Part shown: positions 1,738 to 23,508 of the stretch, one piece after another
Position numbering within the stretch: the first letter of the stretch is position 1
Layout of the letters: each line of letters begins with the position of its first letter
Assembly: GCA_902762785.1 (NCBI GenBank)
Contig: CACWPL010000024.1
Coordinates: 61,810 to 125,809, forward strand
From: an uncultured Ruminococcus sp.
GTDB lineage: Bacteria; Bacillota; Clostridia; Oscillospirales; Ruminococcaceae
Length of the DNA: 64,000 nt
Direction of reading: 5' to 3'
Position numbers and translations under genes: made by a program
The notes under the pieces: model-generated
The model's database searches: none
Told to the model about the DNA's origin: nothing
The model's input: only the letters and a program-made list of their open reading frames with translations

Positions 1738-3416
1738 CAGAACAGTCCCTTGATGCTGCCGTTGTTGTCGCAGTCGATGCTGTTGGCGGCGGGCTTCTTG
1801 GGCAGACCGGGCATCGTCATGATGTCGCCCGTCAGCACGACCACGAACCCGGCACCTGCCGAGAGCCGCACGTCGCGGACGGTGATCTGGAAGTTCTCGG
1901 GCTTGCCGAGCGCCTTGGGGTCGTCCGAGAGGGAATACTGCGTCTTGGCGATGCAGACGGGCAGACCGCCGTAGCCGAGCGCCTCGATCTCCGCGAGGGC
2001 CTTGGCGGCCTGCGGGAGGAACTTCACGCCGTCCGCGCGGTAGATCTCCTTGGCGATCGTCTCGACCTTCTTGGCGATGCTCTGGTCGAGGCGGTAGAGC
2101 GGACGGAACTGCTCGCCGCCCTCCTCGGTCATGGCGATGGTGTCCACGACCTTCTGGGCGAGGTCCATGCCGCCCTCGCCGCCCTTGGCGAACACCTCGC
2201 ACATGGACGTCTCGACGCCCATCTTGCGGCAATAGTCCGCGATGAAGGCCAGCTCCTCGTCGCTGTCGGTATGGAAGCGGTTGATGGCAACGACCACCGG
2301 GACATGGTACTTGAACATGTTCTCGATGTGGGTGCGCAGGTTGATGATGCCGCGGCGGAGGGCGTCCACGTCAGGCGTGGTCAGCTCGCTGCGGTCGACG
2401 CCGCCGTTGTACTTCAGCGCACGGACGGTCGCCACGAGGACGACGCACGAGGGCTTCAGGCCGGCATAGCGACACTTGATGTCGAAGAACTTCTCGGCGC
2501 CGAGGTCGGAGCCGAAGCCTGCCTCGGTCACGACATAGTCGCCGAGCTTGAGGGCGAGCTTGGTGGCGCGGACGGAGTTGCACCCGTGGGCGATGTTCGC
2601 GAAGGGGCCGCCGTGGATGAGGACGGGCGTATGCTCGAGGGTCTGGACGAGATTGGGCTTGAGCGCGTCCTTCAGGAGGGCGGTCATCGCGCCCTCGGCG
2701 TGGAGGTCGCGGGCATAGACCGGCTCGCCGTCGGTATTATAGGCCACGAGGATGGAGCCGAGGCGCTTTTTGAGGTCCTCGAGGTCGGAGGCGAGACATA
2801 GGATGGCCATGACCTCGCTGGCGACGGTGATCTGGAAGCCGTCCTCACGCGGCACGCCGTTGACCTTGCCGCCGAGCCCGACGATGATATTGCGGAGGGC
2901 ACGGTCGTTCATGTCGAGACAGCGCTTGAAGAGGATGCGGCGGGTGTCGATCTTGAGCTCGTTGCCCTGCTGGAGGTGGTTGTCGAGGAGGGCGCAGAGG
3001 AGGTTGTTGGCGGCGGTCATGGCGTGGATGTCGCCGGTGAAGTGGAGGTTGATGTCCTCCATGGGGATGACCTGGGAATAGCCGCCGCCGGCCGCACCGC
3101 CCTTGATGCCGAACACCGGCCCGAGGGACGGCTCACGCAGCGCGAGCACGGCCTTCTTGCCGATCTTGGCCATGGCCTGACCGAGGCCGACGGAGACGGT
3201 CGTCTTGCCCTCACCGGCGGGGGTGGGGTTGATGGCGGTCACGAGGATGAGCTTGCCGTCCGGGCGGCAGGCGGTCTTGGCGTAGAGCGATTCGCTGAGC
3301 TTGGCCTTATAGTGGCCGTAGGGCTCGAGCTCCTCGGGGGAGATGCCGAGCGGTGCGGCGATCTCCGTGATGGGCAGCATCTTGGCCTGCTGCGCGATCT
3401 CGATATCAGTGAGCAT
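1737..3416 (-). CDS. fhs: formate-tetrahydrofolate ligase
   Basis: Fhs joins formate to tetrahydrofolate using ATP, giving 10-formyl-THF for purine synthesis and one-carbon metabolism. The 559 residues match the family length. The nucleotide-binding TPAGEGKTT is at about residues 65-73, followed by [20 protein letters not shown] and later [19 protein letters not shown], both hallmark blocks. AGGAGG lies eight bases before the ATG at 3416, and a good promoter sits at 3464-3492. It is the first gene of the minus-strand run that continues into tsaE, tsaB, rpiB and upp. Confidence 0.97.
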
Positions 3417-9458: not shown

Positions 9459-9555
9459 AAAAAACAAGCAGACCCGCCGGGGAGGGCGGGCCTGCTTGCC
9501 ATGATATAGGGATCATATAGGGGATATCATCAACGCTGGGGAACGTTGGATGACA
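9459..9555 (-). ncRNA. candidate small RNA, copy 1 of a two-member family
   Basis: On the minus strand a predicted start near 9555 is followed by three parts. The first is a hairpin (CATCAACG with CGTTGGATG, 9528-9552) with a C-rich loop. The second is an unpaired stretch with two ATCCC repeats ending in CCCTATATCATG (9500-9527). The third is a 13-base GC-rich terminator stem (9466-9478 with 9485-9497) followed by GTTTTTT. The same order of parts recurs at 16098-16242. No open frame is evident. No known RNA family was recognised, so function is unknown. Confidence 0.55.
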
Positions 9556-9561
9556 GTTTTT

Positions 9562-9616
9562 ATTGTACTGTTTTCATGTGATAAAATGGTGAAAATAAGG
9601 CGAAAAGTAAATGATA
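9562..9616 (-). promoter_or_regulatory. -10 box and 11-bp iterated boxes of small RNA copy 1
   Basis: TACAAT (minus, 9567-9562) has no good -35. Nine bases upstream begins TGTGATA (plus, 9577-9583). Degenerate copies follow at 9588, 9599 and 9610, exactly 11 bp apart. The layout matches that of copy 2 and resembles sites for OmpR/PhoB-family activators. Confidence 0.45.
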
Positions 9617-16097: not shown

Positions 16098-16242
16098 CCG
16101 GACACACAAAACCCCGACGGGGTGGTCGGGGGCTTGTGCATGATATAGGGATTATTGGGGATGCTCTTAATAACGTTGGGGTAGAAACGTTATTATGTGC
16201 GGATGGTAATGCGGCACGGATCTGCACGGCACTATTACCACA
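16098..16242 (-). ncRNA. candidate small RNA, copy 2 of a two-member family
   Basis: Read on the minus strand from about 16242, parts appear in this order. A stem TGGTAAT with ATTACCA has no counterpart in copy 1. Next comes a perfect nine-base stem AATAACGTT/AACGTTATT with a C-rich loop, then an unpaired stretch with two ATCCC repeats ending in CCCTATATCATG. Last is a GC-rich terminator stem (16107-16138) followed by TTTTGTG. The last three parts match copy 1 (9459-9555). It starts about 90 bases past the end of the histidine kinase gene on the same strand. Confidence 0.55.
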
Positions 16243-16248
16243 AAATAA

Positions 16249-16303
16249 AGTATACTGTATGTATATGATAAACATGTGATAATTGTGTGATAGTTCTGTG
16301 ATA
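16249..16303 (-). promoter_or_regulatory. -10 box and four 11-bp iterated boxes of small RNA copy 2
   Basis: TATACT (minus, 16254-16249) lacks a -35. Upstream lie TATGATA (plus, 16264) and TGTGATA at 16275, 16286 and 16297, exactly 11 bp apart. The nearest box ends nine bases from the -10, as in copy 1. This spacing is typical of OmpR/PhoB-family activator sites. Confidence 0.55.
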
Positions 16304-16334: not shown

Positions 16335-17807
16335 TCACTTTTCGCCGCTGCGGGGACGTTTTTTCTCCGGCGTTCCCGTCCGCAGGAGGAACCAGAACAC
16401 CGACCCCTCGCCGAGCTTCGAGCGCACGCCGAAGGGACATCCGTGCATCTTCAGGATCGCCTTGACGATCGAGAGGCCAAGGCCGGTGCCGACCACCTCG
16501 CGCTTGTGATTCTCGCTGCGGTAGTATTTGTCGAAGATCTTCTGGATCTTGTCCTCCTCGATGCCGTCGCCGGTGTCGCGCACCTCGATGCGCACGCCCT
16601 CGGGGCAGTTGACCTGCGTCACGAAGACCTGCTTGTCGGCGCCGGTGTAGTTGATGGCGTTGTTGATGAGGTTGCAGACGACGCGCTCCATCTTCCCGGG
16701 GTCGCACACGACCTCCGCGGGCTCGTCCGGCGTGAAGGTGATGTGGTAGCCCATGCGCTCGGAGATGCCCTTATAGCGCGTGATGATGTCCGTGAGCCAG
16801 ACGGTGACGTCGAGCGTCTCCGGCTCGAGCTTCTGGGAGCCGTTCTCGAGCTTGGAGAGGTCGAGGATGTCGCTGACGAGGGCGGTCAGGCGGTCGGTCT
16901 CGTCGATGATGATGTTGAGGTGCGCCTCCCGCTTGACGGGGTCGTTGCCGGAGAGGTCGCGGATCATCTCGGCGTAGGCCTTGAGCATGGTCAGCGGTGT
17001 GCGGAGGTCGTGGGAGACGTTCGCGATGAGGTCGCGCTGCATCATGTCCGCCTTGGAGATCTCCTGCTCGGCGTAGGTGAGGGCGCGGGCGAGCTCATCG
17101 ACCTCGCGGCAGCTCCCGCCCTCGAAGCGTGTGGTGTAGTCGCCGTGTGCCATGCGCTTGGCGGATTCGGTGATGCGCGTGATGGGGACGGAGATGTGCT
17201 TGGAGATGATGTAGGAGATGCCGCATCCGATCAGCAGCACGAGCACGCTGTAGAGCAGGATCATCCGCTTGAGCACGCGGCTCGTGGCGTCGACCGGCTC
17301 TAAGATCGTATTGATGAAGATGCACCCCTGGACATCGTCCTTGGTGCCGAGGACATAGCCGACGAGGAGCGTCTCGCGCCCGATCTTCTCATCGAAGACA
17401 CGCAGACAGATGCTGCCGTCCTCGCTGGCATCGAGCGCCTCGACGAACTCGAGGAGGCGGCTGTCGTGGCCGTGGATGAGGCAGCGGTTGTCCATGACGT
17501 CGCGGTGATAGGGGAGACGCTGGCGCGAGTCATAGAGGGAGATGCACATTTGGTCGGAGACGGCTGCGGTGGAGAGCTTTTCCTTGAAGGTCTCGATGCT
17601 GTCGGAGCGGTAGCTCTCGACGAGCTCGAGGGCGGCACGCTGCGTGTCGCGGATCTTGAAGCGGAAATAGAACTTCTCGAGCAGCACGACCTCGAAGAGC
17701 CACAGGAGCCACGCGATGATGACCGTGAAGATCACGAAGCTCGCGGCGAGGCGCCCGCGCAGGGGCGTCCGGCACCGGAAACGGTGCATGAGACCTTTAA
17801 GTCGCAT
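16335..17807 (-). CDS. sensor histidine kinase
   Basis: This 490-residue membrane kinase has membrane spans near residues 22-42 and 190-212 that flank an extracytoplasmic sensor region. A HAMP segment follows (ISVPITRITESAKRMAHGDY), then the phospho-accepting histidine in NVSHDLRTPLTM (about 267). The ATPase domain has NLINNAINYT, RDTGDGIEED and GTGLGLSI boxes. It should phosphorylate the response regulator encoded just upstream, whose 3' end it overlaps by 11 bases. The stimulus is unknown. A candidate small RNA lies immediately downstream on the same strand. Confidence 0.93.
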   Translation of the reverse strand: MRLKGLMHRFRCRTPLRGRLAASFVIFTVIIAWLLWLFEVVLLEKFYFRFKIRDTQRAALELVESYRSDSIETFKEKLSTAAVSDQMCISLYDSRQRLPYHRDVMDNRCLIHGHDSRLLEFVEALDASEDGSICLRVFDEKIGRETLLVGYVLGTKDDVQGCIFINTILEPVDATSRVLKRMILLYSVLVLLIGCGISYIISKHISVPITRITESAKRMAHGDYTTRFEGGSCREVDELARALTYAEQEISKADMMQRDLIANVSHDLRTPLTMLKAYAEMIRDLSGNDPVKREAHLNIIIDETDRLTALVSDILDLSKLENGSQKLEPETLDVTVWLTDIITRYKGISERMGYHITFTPDEPAEVVCDPGKMERVVCNLINNAINYTGADKQVFVTQVNCPEGVRIEVRDTGDGIEEDKIQKIFDKYYRSENHKREVVGTGLGLSIVKAILKMHGCPFGVRSKLGEGSVFWFLLRTGTPEKKRPRSGEK

Positions 17808-18495
17808 CGGGGTCGAACTTGTAGCCGAGACCGCGGAGGGTCACGATGTAGGTGCGGTATTCGCCGAGGGAGCCGCGGAGCATCTTGATGTGGGTATCGA
17901 CGGTACGGTCATCGCCGAAGAAATCGTAGCCCCAGACGGCCTCGAGCAGCTTGTCGCGGGAGAGCGCGAGGCCCTTGTTGCGCACGAGGTAGAAGAGGAG
18001 GTCGTACTCCTTGGGGGTCATGGAGGCCTTGTGTCCGTCGACGTAGACCTCGCGGCCGGCCAGGTCGATCTCGAGGCCGCCGAAGACGAGGCGTTCGTTC
18101 TGTGCGGGCGCCTGTGCGGCGGCTGCGGCGGCGGCAGCGCTCCGGGCGAGCACGGCCTTGACGCGCGCCATCAGCTCCTTGGGCGAGAAGGGCTTGACGA
18201 CGTAATCGTCCGCACCGATCTCGAAGCCGAAGAGCTTGTCATACTCCTCGCCGCGGGCGGAGAGCATGATGATCGGGATGTCCTTGTGGCGCTTGATCTC
18301 CTTGCTGGCGGAATAGCCGTCGAGCTTGGGCATCATGACGTCCATGATGATGAGGTCATAGTCGTTGCTGCGGCACTTCTCGACCGCCTCCATGCCGTTC
18401 GAGGCCTCGTCGACCTCGTATTCCTCAAATTCTGCATATTCGCGCACGACCGCGCGGATGTTCACCTCATCGTCAACGATCAGGAGCTTGCTCAT
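17797..18495 (-). CDS. OmpR/PhoB-family response regulator
   Basis: This 232-residue regulator has a receiver domain (DDE at residues 8-10, phospho-Asp in IIMDVMMPKLDG near 51, conserved Lys in VVKPFSPKEL) and a C-terminal winged-helix DNA-binding domain (TPKEYDLLFYLVRNKG, VDTHIKMLRGSLG). The linker is an unusual run of eight alanines (SAAAAAAAAQAP). The ATG at 18495 follows a GGAAG ribosome site. It is cotranscribed with the kinase. OmpR-family proteins bind direct repeats about 11 bp apart, so it is a natural candidate activator of the small RNA genes. Confidence 0.93.
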   Translation of the reverse strand: MSKLLIVDDEVNIRAVVREYAEFEEYEVDEASNGMEAVEKCRSNDYDLIIMDVMMPKLDGYSASKEIKRHKDIPIIMLSARGEEYDKLFGFEIGADDYVVKPFSPKELMARVKAVLARSAAAAAAAAQAPAQNERLVFGGLEIDLAGREVYVDGHKASMTPKEYDLLFYLVRNKGLALSRDKLLEAVWGYDFFGDDRTVDTHIKMLRGSLGEYRTYIVTLRGLGYKFDPDAT

Positions 18496-18735: not shown

Positions 18736-18764
18736 TTGCATTTTGGGGCGATGTGTGCTATAAT
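18736..18764 (+). promoter_or_regulatory. promoter of the CapA-like lipoprotein gene
   Basis: TTGCAT (18736-18741), 17-base spacer ending TGC, TATAAT (18759-18764). It faces away from the two-component promoter in a 353-base gap that holds nothing else recognisable. Confidence 0.75.
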
Positions 18765-18848
18765 GAAGGATATGATGCTTTTGCGGAGGACGTCCCTCCG
18801 TTCGACGTTCGCGCACCTGCGCGTGATACCAAAGAAAGGGATACCATC

Positions 18849-20156
18849 ATGACGAATGTCCAGAAGATCGGATGCGTCTGCACCGCCCTGCTGCTCACAG
18901 CACTGACGGGATGCGGCGGCATCTCCCAGAACGACCCGAACTACGCTTCCGGCGACTCGGTGCTCGAGACCATCGCGACCGTGCCGCGTGAGGGCGAGAC
19001 GACTGCCGTGCAGGACGACCCGCTCGACCCCTCCGACGATCCGTTCGGCGAGACCCTCCCCGAGGAGACCGAGGCCGCCGGCGGCAGCGGCACCATCCAC
19101 TTCCTCGCCGTGGGCGATGACCTGCTCCACACCCGCGTCTACCAGTCCGCCGCGGCCCATGCGGAGGACGGCGAGGACTACAATTTCTACTACTGCTACC
19201 AGGGCGTGGCCGACCGCGTCGAGGAGGCGGACCTGGCCTTCATCAACCAGGAGACCGTCATCTGCAACGGCGAATACGAGGTCTGCGGCTCCAACCTGAA
19301 CTTCTGCTCGCCGGACGAGCTGGGGTATCAGCTCATCGACATCGGCTTCGACATCTTCAACCTCTCCAATAACCACATCCTCGACAAGGGCGCCGACGGC
19401 ATGCGCGCGTGCCTTGACTACTGGGATGCCCGCGTCGCCGAGAACGACGGCCTCATCGTCGAGGGCGTCTACCGCGACTACCAGGACATGTTCGACTACC
19501 GCACCACCGAGGTCAACGGCGTCACCGTCGGCGTCCTCGGCTACACCGACCATACCAACGGCTACTCCCTCCCCGCCACCTCCGAGATGGAGATCCCCTA
19601 TCTGAATCAGACCGACCTCATCGAGCGCCAGATCAAGGAGCTGTCCGAGCAGGTGGACTGCGTGGTCGTCTCCGCGCACTGGGGCGTCGAGGACACGCAC
19701 ACCGTCAGTGAGGACGTCAAGTCCATCGCCAAGAAGATGATCGAGTGGGGCGCCGACGTCATCATCGGCACCGGCCCGCATACCCTCCAGACCATGGAGT
19801 ACATCGACAGGAGCGACGGCACACAGGGCTTCGTCTACTATTCGCTGGGCAACTTCATCTCTGGCCAGACCGACAGCTTCAACATGGTCGGCGGCATGGC
19901 GCTCTTCGACATCGTCAAGGAGAACGGCGTCACCACCATCGAGACCCCCCAGCTCACCCCCATCATCACGCAGTACGAGACCGGCTCGCTCAACGACGTC
20001 CGCGTCATCCCGTACTATGACTACACCGACGACCTCATCGCCGCCCATGGCCTGCCGTATTCCCCCTGGGGCACGGCCAAGACCTGGAGCCGCAGCGTCA
20101 TCGAGACCATCATCGAGAACAATGTCCCCGAGGAATATCGCCGCCTGACCAGGTGA
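18849..20156 (+). CDS. CapA-family (PGA_cap) lipoprotein
   Basis: This 435-residue lipoprotein has the lipobox LTALTGCGG (lipidated C22), an acidic Thr-rich linker to about residue 80, and a CapA-like metallophosphatase-fold domain. Marks include AVGDDLLHTRVY, INQETVIC, FNLSNNHILDKG, VVSAHWGVED, GTGPHTLQ and YSLGNFISGQ. CapA proteins take part in poly-gamma-glutamate capsule handling, but many relatives have other, unknown surface roles. No capB or capC partner is nearby. The ATG at 18849 follows AAAGGG. A terminator follows the gene. Confidence 0.88.
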   Translation: MTNVQKIGCVCTALLLTALTGCGGISQNDPNYASGDSVLETIATVPREGETTAVQDDPLDPSDDPFGETLPEETEAAGGSGTIHFLAVGDDLLHTRVYQSAAAHAEDGEDYNFYYCYQGVADRVEEADLAFINQETVICNGEYEVCGSNLNFCSPDELGYQLIDIGFDIFNLSNNHILDKGADGMRACLDYWDARVAENDGLIVEGVYRDYQDMFDYRTTEVNGVTVGVLGYTDHTNGYSLPATSEMEIPYLNQTDLIERQIKELSEQVDCVVVSAHWGVEDTHTVSEDVKSIAKKMIEWGADVIIGTGPHTLQTMEYIDRSDGTQGFVYYSLGNFISGQTDSFNMVGGMALFDIVKENGVTTIETPQLTPIITQYETGSLNDVRVIPYYDYTDDLIAAHGLPYSPWGTAKTWSRSVIETIIENNVPEEYRRLTR

Positions 20157-20767: not shown

Positions 20768-21598
20768 ATGAAGGTAAGGAAGATCGTTGCCGCTATGGCA
20801 GCAATGTCCATGCTGGCAGCGTTTTCGGCGCAGACTGCTTCGGCAGCCGGCGCAGTGACCCTGGCGGCAGAGAAGGTGAACGTAGAGGCGGGCTCTGATT
20901 TCGAGCTCAAGATCAACATCGGGGGGCTCCCGGATACGGGCCTGTCGGTGCTGGAGTTCGCAGTCAAGTATGACAGCTCTAAGATCACCATCAATTCTAT
21001 CGACGCAGGGACCGCCGCGAGCACAGGGGTAGACGCAGCAGAGGTCCTGGAGGGCGTGACCGCGTTCAGCGTGCAGTCCCCCGCAGCAGGCACTTACACC
21101 GTGACCTATTCCACGGGCAAGTCTGACAAGCAGTACTGCATCTCCAAGGAGGGCGACTTCGCCGTGATCAAGGGCTCCGTTCCGGCTGGCACAGCAGCTG
21201 GTGAGTATGCCGTTGAGCTCGTTGCGATCGACCGCGAGACCACCCAGGGCAGCGGCACCAAGAACACCGAGATCGTTGCCGGCTACATCGACGCCAATGA
21301 CGTTGGCACCAAGTACGAGGTGACTGCCACCGCTGGTGCTGTCATCGTAGGCGATGGCGAGACCGACCCGACCCCGACCCAGGGCGGCGACGTTCTGTAC
21401 GGCGACTGCGACGTTGACGGTGACGTTGACATCATGGACGTTATCGCGATCAACAAGGCGATCCTCGGCTCCTATACGCTGAGCCCCCAGGGCAAGATCA
21501 ACGCCGACGTTGACCTCAACCAGGTGATCGACACCACGGATGCACTGAACATCCTGAAGAATGTCGTAAAGCTCGTTGAGCTGCCGGTAAAGTCCTGA
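20768..21598 (+). CDS. scaC: ScaC-like adaptor scaffoldin, one cohesin plus dockerin
   Basis: This secreted 276-residue protein has a signal peptide (about 1-27), one cohesin-type beta-sandwich (about 30-195, with LEFAVKYDSSKITINS and ends in VTATAGAVIVGDG), a short Thr/Pro linker and a dockerin (about 210-276, DCDVDGDVDIMD and DVDLNQVIDTTD loops). The dockerin closely resembles those of the GH10 and GH9 enzymes. It should therefore dock where enzymes dock and offer its own cohesin as an adaptor, as ScaC does in R. flavefaciens. The ATG follows AAGGAGG. Gene symbol is by cluster position and architecture. It opens the scaC-scaA-scaB run. Confidence 0.82.
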   Translation: MKVRKIVAAMAAMSMLAAFSAQTASAAGAVTLAAEKVNVEAGSDFELKINIGGLPDTGLSVLEFAVKYDSSKITINSIDAGTAASTGVDAAEVLEGVTAFSVQSPAAGTYTVTYSTGKSDKQYCISKEGDFAVIKGSVPAGTAAGEYAVELVAIDRETTQGSGTKNTEIVAGYIDANDVGTKYEVTATAGAVIVGDGETDPTPTQGGDVLYGDCDVDGDVDIMDVIAINKAILGSYTLSPQGKINADVDLNQVIDTTDALNILKNVVKLVELPVKS

Positions 21599-21774
21599 TC
21601 GGACCTGCACCCAGCCAAACAAATGACAGCTTATGACGTCATCTCTGTTGTGACATCCTGTTCCTGACCTCTTGCTCAAAAAAGCGACATCTTTTGTTGA
21701 GACACCGATGATCTGCACACCGCAGGCAGCGACAAATGTCTGCAAAACCCATATAAGAAAGGAATTTATTAGTT

Positions 21775-23508
21775 ATGAAGAAGGTAATCTCTGCACTGAC
21801 AGCAGCTGCAATGTGCGCGAGCATGTCTGCTGGCATCATGACGGCTTTCGCCGCTTTCTCCGCTGACAACATGTCCCTGTACCTGAAGGTCGTTGACGAC
21901 TCTTCCGGTAAGGGCGTCATCGACGGCAACACCATCACCTTTAAGTCCGGCGAGACTAACGGTGCTGTGCTGACCCTCCAGGAGTTCATCGACTGCGACG
22001 TGAACGGCGCTCAGATCCAGCAGGTAGGCTCCACCTTTACCACCAACTCCACGAACATCAAGCTCGGGGATCCTGTATCCTACAGCAAGAACTACACCGA
22101 GAAGACCTACACCCTGGCCAACGGCACGACCTTCACGACCGACCTGTTCCCGTGCTGCTTCGGCTGGTGGGACAGCGACTTTGGGGAGTTCAACACCGGC
22201 TCCCAGGCTTCCACTGGTACCAACGCTGATTGGGGCGCTGGCTTCGTCGGCAACGGCGACAACGACATCGTTCTCGTAAACTGGGCGACCAGCTTCGACG
22301 AGACCTGCGGCAGAGACGATTGGAAGACCACCGCAGCCTTCATGGACAGCAAGTCCGACACCCTGCCCTTCTTCCAGTTCACCGCTACCCTCGGCGACCT
22401 GGCTGACGGCACCTATGAGATCACCTTCCTTGATGAGTGGACCCACGGCGAGTTCGGCAAGCAGATCGGTAACTATGTAAACACCGAGGGCAAGTCCTCC
22501 ACCAAGTACGCGCTGACCAAGCACACCGGCATCAAGATCGTTGTTGGTGACGCTACCGAGGAGACTACCCAGGCCACCGAGGCGACCGACAAGCCCACTG
22601 AGGCTCCGACCACTGAGCCTACGACCGCTCCGACCGACAAGCCCACCGACGCTCCGACCCAGCCGGCCACCGGCAGCCAGGAGGAGATCTCCGGCAGAGC
22701 TTGGTACATGAAGGACTATGTCGTTGAGGATCTCGATGCCTTCGCTGCAAAGCCCACCGTTACCTTCCCGATCTACTCCAACGGCGACACCGGTACGTTC
22801 GGCTACTCCGTGACCGTTCTGGCCGATGGCAAGTCCCTGAAGGAGCGCTTCGCGAAGGTCGCTGCAAAGCAGCAGGGCGCCACCAAGCTCTCCGGCTTCG
22901 TGACGAACTACGATGAGTCCATCTTCGGTGCTTCCGAGTCCGAGCAGAAGGGTGACCACATCTTCGCTGACGGCGACACCATCATGACCTTCTCCCTGAC
23001 CATCAAGGATGAGGACATCCAGGCCGCAAAGGCTGCCAAGGCCGAGGGCAAGGAGTACAAGATCGACCTGAGCATGTCTGACCTGACCGTCGGCAACTAC
23101 GCACAGGAGTCCTTCGCTGGCGGCACCGACATCAAGATGATCGGCGCTTCCATCATCCTGGCTTCCGGCGCGTCCGATCCGACCGAGGAGCCCACTGAGG
23201 CTACGACCGACAAGCCCACCGAGCCTCCGACTGAGGGCACGACGGCTCCCGTTACCGGCGACTATCTGTACGGCGACGTAAACGAGAACGGCACTGTTGA
23301 GCTCGTTGACGTTGTAATGCTGAACAGATACCTGACCAAGTACGAGAATCAGGCTCTGACCGCTCGCGCGATCGTTAACGCGAACTGCCTGCGCAACGGC
23401 GAGACGGACGAGGCTACCAAGGCTTCTGACCTGAACGGTAAGGACTCCGTTGAGATCCTGAAGTTCCTGATCGGCTCTGTCAAGACGCTGCCGACTCAGG
23501 CGAAGTAA
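21775..23508 (+). CDS. scaA: ScaA-like scaffoldin, two cohesins plus divergent dockerin
   Basis: This secreted 577-residue protein has a signal peptide (about 1-27), a first cohesin-like domain (about 28-260, divergent, with a CCFGWWDSDFGEF insert), and a Thr/Pro/Glu linker. A second cohesin-like domain (about 303-468) starts WYMKDYVVEDLDAF, and a dockerin covers about 497-577. The second domain is nearly identical to three domains of the next gene. The dockerin is atypical: DVNENGTVELVD is followed by a second half with extra residues (NCLRNGETDEATKAS) before SDLNGKDSVEIL. It should bind the second cohesin type of ScaB. AAAGGAA lies before the ATG. Confidence 0.83.
   Translation: MKKVISALTAAAMCASMSAGIMTAFAAFSADNMSLYLKVVDDSSGKGVIDGNTITFKSGETNGAVLTLQEFIDCDVNGAQIQQVGSTFTTNSTNIKLGDPVSYSKNYTEKTYTLANGTTFTTDLFPCCFGWWDSDFGEFNTGSQASTGTNADWGAGFVGNGDNDIVLVNWATSFDETCGRDDWKTTAAFMDSKSDTLPFFQFTATLGDLADGTYEITFLDEWTHGEFGKQIGNYVNTEGKSSTKYALTKHTGIKIVVGDATEETTQATEATDKPTEAPTTEPTTAPTDKPTDAPTQPATGSQEEISGRAWYMKDYVVEDLDAFAAKPTVTFPIYSNGDTGTFGYSVTVLADGKSLKERFAKVAAKQQGATKLSGFVTNYDESIFGASESEQKGDHIFADGDTIMTFSLTIKDEDIQAAKAAKAEGKEYKIDLSMSDLTVGNYAQESFAGGTDIKMIGASIILASGASDPTEEPTEATTDKPTEPPTEGTTAPVTGDYLYGDVNENGTVELVDVVMLNRYLTKYENQALTARAIVNANCLRNGETDEATKASDLNGKDSVEILKFLIGSVKTLPTQAK

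Follow-up and report, generated by a model that had tools for sequence, protein, structure and literature searches.

A short unit on the minus strand near the left end of the window (the whole stretch of DNA analysed here, 64,000 nucleotides from an uncultured Ruminococcus sp.) raises the question of whether it encodes a regulated small RNA and, if so, what would switch that RNA on and what the RNA would do. A reading made from the sequence alone had proposed a -10 box, phased upstream boxes, a hairpin with a C-rich loop, ATCCC repeats and a terminator. All of these parts were present on the minus strand where they had been placed:

9562-9616, minus strand: promoter of copy 1, read from the sequence; four boxes in 11-bp phase, a 9-nt gap and a -10 box
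9616-9610, 9605-9599, 9594-9588 and 9583-9577, minus strand: the boxes TATCATT, TTTCGCC, TTTCACC and TATCACA, respectively
9567-9562, minus strand: -10 box TACAAT, 9 nt from the last box
9459-9557, minus strand: predicted sRNA of about 99 nt (copy 1), with its 5' end inferred from the -10 box
9555-9525, minus strand: hairpin 1, read from sequence and fold, with the loop CCCC
9525-9500, minus strand: C-rich linker with AUCCCC (9525-9520) and AUCCC (9513-9509), leading to CCCTATATCATG
9499-9459, minus strand: terminator with six T at its end

After the AUCCCC and AUCCC runs comes CAUG and then the terminator. The boxes keep strict 11-bp phase, the last being the only perfect TATCACA, and no -35 element was seen when one was looked for before copy 1. 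The fold has a z-score of -8.6, and none of 200 shuffled sequences folded equally well. Copy 1 is located between an aspartate aminotransferase gene and a divergent RNase Y gene.

The same parts had been said to recur at 16098-16303. The boxes, the -10 box, the hairpin and the linker do recur there; what the second copy lacks is a clean T-run at its first terminator. The region reads as follows:

17797-18489, minus strand: OmpR/PhoB-type response regulator of 230 aa (Response_reg and Trans_reg_C)
16335-17807, minus strand: histidine kinase of 490 aa (HAMP, HisKA and HATPase_c)
16249-16303, minus strand: promoter of copy 2, with TATCACA at 16303, 16292 and 16281, TATCATA at 16270, and a 9-nt gap
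16254-16249, minus strand: -10 box TATACT
About 16103-16242, minus strand: predicted sRNA of about 140 nt (copy 2), whose 3' end may reach about 16030
16195-16168, minus strand: hairpin 1, whose loop includes CCCC (16181-16178)
16162-16157 and 16152-16148, minus strand: AUCCCC and AUCCC of the linker
About 16140-16104, minus strand: terminator-like hairpin with CACCCC in its loop
16075-16030, minus strand: second, stronger terminator-like hairpin with six T, read from the sequence, downstream of copy 2

Copy 2 has an extra 5' hairpin, after which its parts follow as in copy 1, and the hairpin that ends it is followed by TTTTGTGTGT. The stop codon of the kinase gene lies 80 nt upstream of the -10 box. 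The fold of copy 2 has a z-score of -5.75, again with none of 200 shuffles equally good.

Both copies contain the 14-mer ATCCCTATATCATG, which occurs nowhere else in the assembly (92% complete). The exact 14-mer was found in 31 of the 38 genomes of the genus, the present one included, and in 11 of the 12 good genomes. A scan of named genomes returned 70 stretches labelled mostly Ruminococcus, Oscillospiraceae or Clostridia, among them R. flavefaciens YRD2003, XPD3002 and SAb67; five stretches came from unrelated organisms and carried the 14-mer without the rest of the unit. After removal of seven chance matches (L041, L106, L119, L125, L126, L180 and L183), 102 distinct places with the 14-mer left 95 units. 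A covariance model (R1) built from 28 of these units, all of one type (alignment A3), gave 57.9 bits for copy 1 (E 2.7e-10) and 56.2 bits for copy 2. It was positive in 31 of the 38 genus genomes, 27 of which had exactly two copies. With a second model (R2), whose alignment includes both copies, the scores were 68.6 bits for copy 1 and 70.9 bits for copy 2.

Beyond the genus, R1 matched 43 of 297 genomes sampled from the family (E<=0.01, with some weak matches among them), and R2 matched 51 of 396 genomes, representing 15 of 126 genera, at E<=0.001. Matches below E 1e-6 were obtained in 11 of the 126 genera; this strong group leaves out four whose E-values lay between 1e-4 and 1e-3. In a sample of the order, which takes in this family, three of 345 genomes matched, all of them from the family itself. 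Filters in these large-sample searches were stricter, and weak members may be missed. The model match L223 was discarded on reading as a chance match. No match to AATCCCCAATAATCCCTATATCAT was found in viral contigs, and by eye no sRNA stood behind the kinase homologues from outside the family (L088-L092). Judged by these comparisons, the units form a clade-specific sRNA family with copies 1 and 2 as paralogous members, and the proposal that the two copies represent a real RNA family is borne out by homologues with covarying stems in many genomes.

Some members have lost parts of the unit. In the unit L159 of R. flavefaciens YRD2003 (about 3058-3149) the CCCC loop of hairpin 1 is lost and the linker and terminator are intact. 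Behind the kinase gene of L086 (G013), where the covariance model found no match, lies what appears by eye to be a decayed unit, with two boxes and two C-runs kept and the first hairpin and CATG lost.

Three kinds of unit are found in the genus: kind A behind the kinase gene, kind B about 200 bp beyond it in a tandem arrangement, and kind C, to which copy 1 belongs, kilobases away. Of 104 distinct places with the 14-mer, 7 of them chance matches, 77 have a same-strand kinase match that ends no more than 900 nt upstream of it; most of the others are second copies at a distance or lie at the end of a contig. Since most units stand behind a kinase gene, and since copy 1 precedes the same-strand aminotransferase gene by about 250 nt, it might be thought that the element is not a free RNA but acts in cis, as a leader or attenuator, or forms the 3' end of the transcript from the kinase operon. 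We consider this very improbable, because the units own a conserved promoter and because in 51 of the 85 testable units the opposite strand carries the next downstream open reading frame (on crude ORF calls; ten further units were too near a contig end for the test). Moreover, second copies in the window and in genomes G002, G034 and G036 are separated from the first by 6 to 11 kb and vary in orientation.

The structure is supported by covariation. In A3, 20 of 25 pairs changed on both sides and 96.4% were paired, values not equalled by any of 500 shuffles. A search of 91 chosen loci with R1 gave 113 matches, of which 110 were distinct sequences; these make up alignment A4. All 25 pairs change on both sides in A4, 96.0% of the cells are paired, and the covariation score is 0.847 compared with 0.243 for shuffled and at most 0.141 for slid alignments. 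A4 was fitted to the structure and leans to the model, and on one of five measures (the 25 pairs changed on both sides) it was equalled by 100 of 500 shuffles. A mixed alignment of 91 rows (A2, near-duplicates L147, L156, L172 and L176 omitted) was replaced by A3 and A4: RNAalifold recovered only the terminator from it because the 5' hairpin was misaligned. A hairpin follows CAUG in all 95 units, as the best-folding stretch chosen by a script, and the T-runs after it vary.

The C-rich parts are retained alongside these changing stems. Loop 1 has CCC or CUCC in 108 of the 110 sequences (CCCC in 95) and the linker has two C-runs in 101; CCC is present in 23 terminator loops, where letter shuffling leads one to expect 9.5 (the highest of 200 shuffles gave 16). 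The 14-mer does not vary within the genus, but there the search pattern itself required it. The linker was also read in 16 units of other genera found by covariance model and not by the 14-mer, of which 12 have CCCCAATAATCC and 15 have CCTATATCAT. Stem covariation together with C-run retention indicates that the stems are free to change and that the unpaired C-rich parts are held. As deduced from the alignments, then, the RNA has two hairpins, both covarying, and between them an unpaired linker that is strongly conserved. Six units of other genera (L218-L222 and L224) were seen by eye to carry one more hairpin, with the loop ACCCC, further upstream.

The unit could conceivably be a small mRNA, translated into a peptide from the ATG in ATATCATG. 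This ATG is present in every counted unit of the genus, though the search pattern required it; at its place most of the model-found units of other genera have CATA or CACA. Furthermore, the bases after the ATG form a terminator stem that changes freely, and we regard a peptide as scarcely credible.

What would control the RNA is suggested by the promoter, whose conserved layout consists of 11-bp repeats, TWTCACA-N4, nine bases from the -10 box. Three of the 95 units yielded no promoter candidate; in 87 of the remaining 92 the best gap between box and -10 was 9, compared with 141 of 1217 shuffled sequences, which confirms the iterated site nine bases upstream that had been described for copy 1. 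The best period was 11 in 85 of 94 units and in 111 of 938 shuffled sequences. Across the whole assembly, TWTCAYA-N4-TWTCAYA-N9-TANNNT is matched with zero mismatch only by the promoter of copy 2 and by that of a gene for a 160-aa protein; the promoter of copy 1 is a one-mismatch match in the genome scan. With up to two mismatches the scan gave 18 places and its reversed control 8, so weak matches are uninformative.

The promoter of the 160-aa protein gene (L225, G000:C21, 976-1458, minus strand) is laid out like those of the sRNAs. Its product is membrane-like by eye and matches no Pfam family. The gene is held by four of 41 genomes (three of 40 others and the present one), and the layout is found before all four.

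At copy 2, head-to-tail sites 11 bp apart take the place of a -35 element and adjoin a gene for an OmpR/PhoB-type regulator. PhoP, a relative of this regulator, binds a site of 7-bp direct repeats with a 4-bp spacer, according to the accessible part of PMC4832192. The 7+4-bp layout of PhoP/PhoB boxes is thus alike, as far as that part describes PhoP, whereas the box sequence here, TWTCACA, differs. From the site geometry and the linkage to the operon we infer that the regulator beside copy 2 is probably the owner of the iterated site and the activator of both sRNAs. The histidine kinase would phosphorylate the regulator encoded with it, which would then bind the 7+4-bp sites head to tail in replacement of a -35 element and switch both sRNAs on. 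Among the 25 best NCBIfam matches shown for each of the regulator and kinase proteins, none reaches the cut-off.

The operon itself may be a further target of the regulator. Upstream regions of at least 180 nt were taken from 53 regulator genes of at least 70% identity; period 11 was best in 41 of them (146 of 1059 shuffled) and gap 9 in 32 (119 of 1059 shuffled). Their mean score was 14.9 compared with 13.0 for shuffled sequences, and 8 of the 53 scored at least 16, as did 0.4% of shuffled sequences. The window's own regulator gene (L068) shows no convincing box promoter, its score of 11.5 being tied lowest of 55. These counts suggest self-activation of the regulator operon in relatives, not seen for the present genome; in most relatives the regulator would probably switch on its own operon as well as the sRNAs.

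Divergent from the regulator operon, a capsule-synthesis-type protein (PGA_cap) is encoded at 18753-20156 on the plus strand of the window. Two secreted-looking proteins are encoded on the same strand at 20768-23508, and their C-terminal ends look, we presume, dockerin-like.

How might such an RNA act? We think it probable that it is a C-rich trans-acting sRNA, activated by the response regulator, that pairs with the ribosome sites of mRNAs. The RNA is presumably transcribed, and would expose C-runs in hairpin loop 1, in the linker (as a rule two) and in some cases in the loop of the terminator. Most likely these C-runs would base-pair with G-rich stretches where ribosomes bind several mRNAs, and so block translation.

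Pairing of the ATCCC repeats with GGGAT-type sequences near ribosome sites had been suggested for copy 1; two limited searches, on crude gene calls and a partial genome, gave no signal of it. A duplex-energy search covered 863,908 bases (the window and 40 stretches of its own genome) with 725 crude gene starts, and the type A linker only was compared with shuffles. The linker was no better than shuffled sequences, its mean energy being equalled or bettered by 43 of 60, and strong pairings numbered 68 against a shuffled average of 61.9, a figure reached by 23 of the 60. The 11-nt linker complement ATAGGGATTAT occurs at 143 places in the 38 genomes, 58 of which are the sRNAs themselves; the other 85 compare with 12 for the reversed pattern. 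This excess looks like coding bias, because several of the places recur from genome to genome at what seem to be equivalent coding positions and because a longer open frame lies on the opposite strand at 61 of the 80 places read. A start codon 8-19 nt downstream that opens at least 40 aa was found at 7 of those 80. For the same reason, coding bias judged by eye, a count of 67 matches with up to two mismatches in the own assembly (control, 7) was set aside as evidence of targets.

The absence of a target signal in these searches agrees with the main rival to mRNA pairing, namely that the C-rich loops and linker sequester an RNA-binding protein, so that the two-component system frees the mRNA targets of that protein. 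Two further observations favour it: the C-runs are kept while the surrounding stems change freely, and the six other-genus units described above carry an additional ACCCC-loop hairpin. CsrB and RsmZ sequester CsrA through GGA loops in such a manner. A specific form of the idea, titration of a C-binding protein by repeated ACCCC loops, would amount to the Gac/Rsm-Csr logic in Gram-positive form, built on another protein; we consider this form distinctly doubtful. For sequestration in general, no candidate protein is known, CCC is found in just 23 of 110 terminator loops, and conservation of the linker extends over about 24 nt, more than mere repetition of a motif requires. We therefore judge it unlikely, if worth bearing in mind, and a similar protein-binding possibility is raised for LhrC by its authors in the accessible part of PMC4132741.

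Pairing with mRNAs, the preferred reading, has precedents among sRNAs of other Gram-positive bacteria. CiaR of Streptococcus is a regulator of the OmpR class. The csRNAs of the CiaRH system, as described in the accessible part of PMC3091779, have two stem-loops around an unpaired conserved linker, are encoded by two to six genes per genome, and are transcribed from promoters with TTTAAG-N5-TTTAAG direct repeats 11 bp apart, 10 bp to the -10 box. On that partial description csRNAs (RF02379) share with the present family two hairpins, an unpaired conserved linker, multiple copies and, as predicted here, two-component control; the sites here, when read as TWTCAC-N5, also share the csRNA period and distance to the -10 box. 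Pairing of the csRNA linker with the SD sequence and start codon of its targets has no counterpart in the results here, the target searches on crude gene calls and part of the genome having shown no enrichment. The csRNA model aligns over its whole length with one unit of R. flavefaciens, scoring 30.6 bits (E 0.01-0.02), where the gathering score is 57. The csRNA model had no match in either copy in the window, and none was listed in eight further loci searched with less permissive filters. The families differ in their boxes (TWTCACA here and TTTAAG there) and in their linkers, and copy 2 adjoins the operon of its own regulator.

LhrC is an Rfam family and had no match to the two copies at gathering score or in E-value mode. 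In the accessible part of PMC4132741, LhrC1-5 of the LisRK regulon of Listeria are described as multicopy and two-component-dependent, with a C-rich motif in loop A, in an unpaired stretch and in the terminator loop, and their binding to lapB mRNA is shown by experiment. The same part states that the C-rich motif of the UCCC-motif sRNAs RNAIII, RsaE, SprD and FsrA takes part in binding mRNAs at SD sequences. At the places where LhrC has its motif, our family has a C-run in loop 1 in 108/110, two in the linker in 101/110, and one in the terminator loop in 23/110 only. However, the motif described for LhrC is of the UCCC type, whereas it is (U)ACCCC and AUCCC(C) here, and binding of a target mRNA is proven for LhrC, whereas pairing here is predicted from sequence alone. 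The other UCCC-motif sRNAs have a C-rich motif that is alike, and none had an Rfam match at gathering score in the scanned stretches. By analogy, the present RNAs look built to work like csRNAs and LhrC, and membership of the copies in either family is not supported.

Ruminococcus species are fibre degraders of the gut and rumen, and the sRNA family found in them was previously unnamed. Because the family usually has two copies per genome in the genus, a candidate regulator, a defined promoter and a conserved linker, it is directly testable. The family also suggests that the coupling of multicopy C-rich sRNAs to a two-component system, as seen in Streptococcus and Listeria, is a design that recurs across Gram-positive bacteria.

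The family had been called new-looking, and this impression held up. With Rfam 15 no family reached the gathering score in the window, nor did any reach it in E-value mode on either copy. Among the papers listed by a literature search, with most subscription papers outside it, none described an sRNA of Ruminococcus under two-component control, and the main text of a paper on structured RNAs (PMC2864571) does not mention the genus. At the 14 loci fetched from relatives (4 + 10), no Rfam family reached the gathering score except a SAM riboswitch (RF00162) elsewhere on L196, located at 2922-3024 on the minus strand near the sRNA unit of that related genome.
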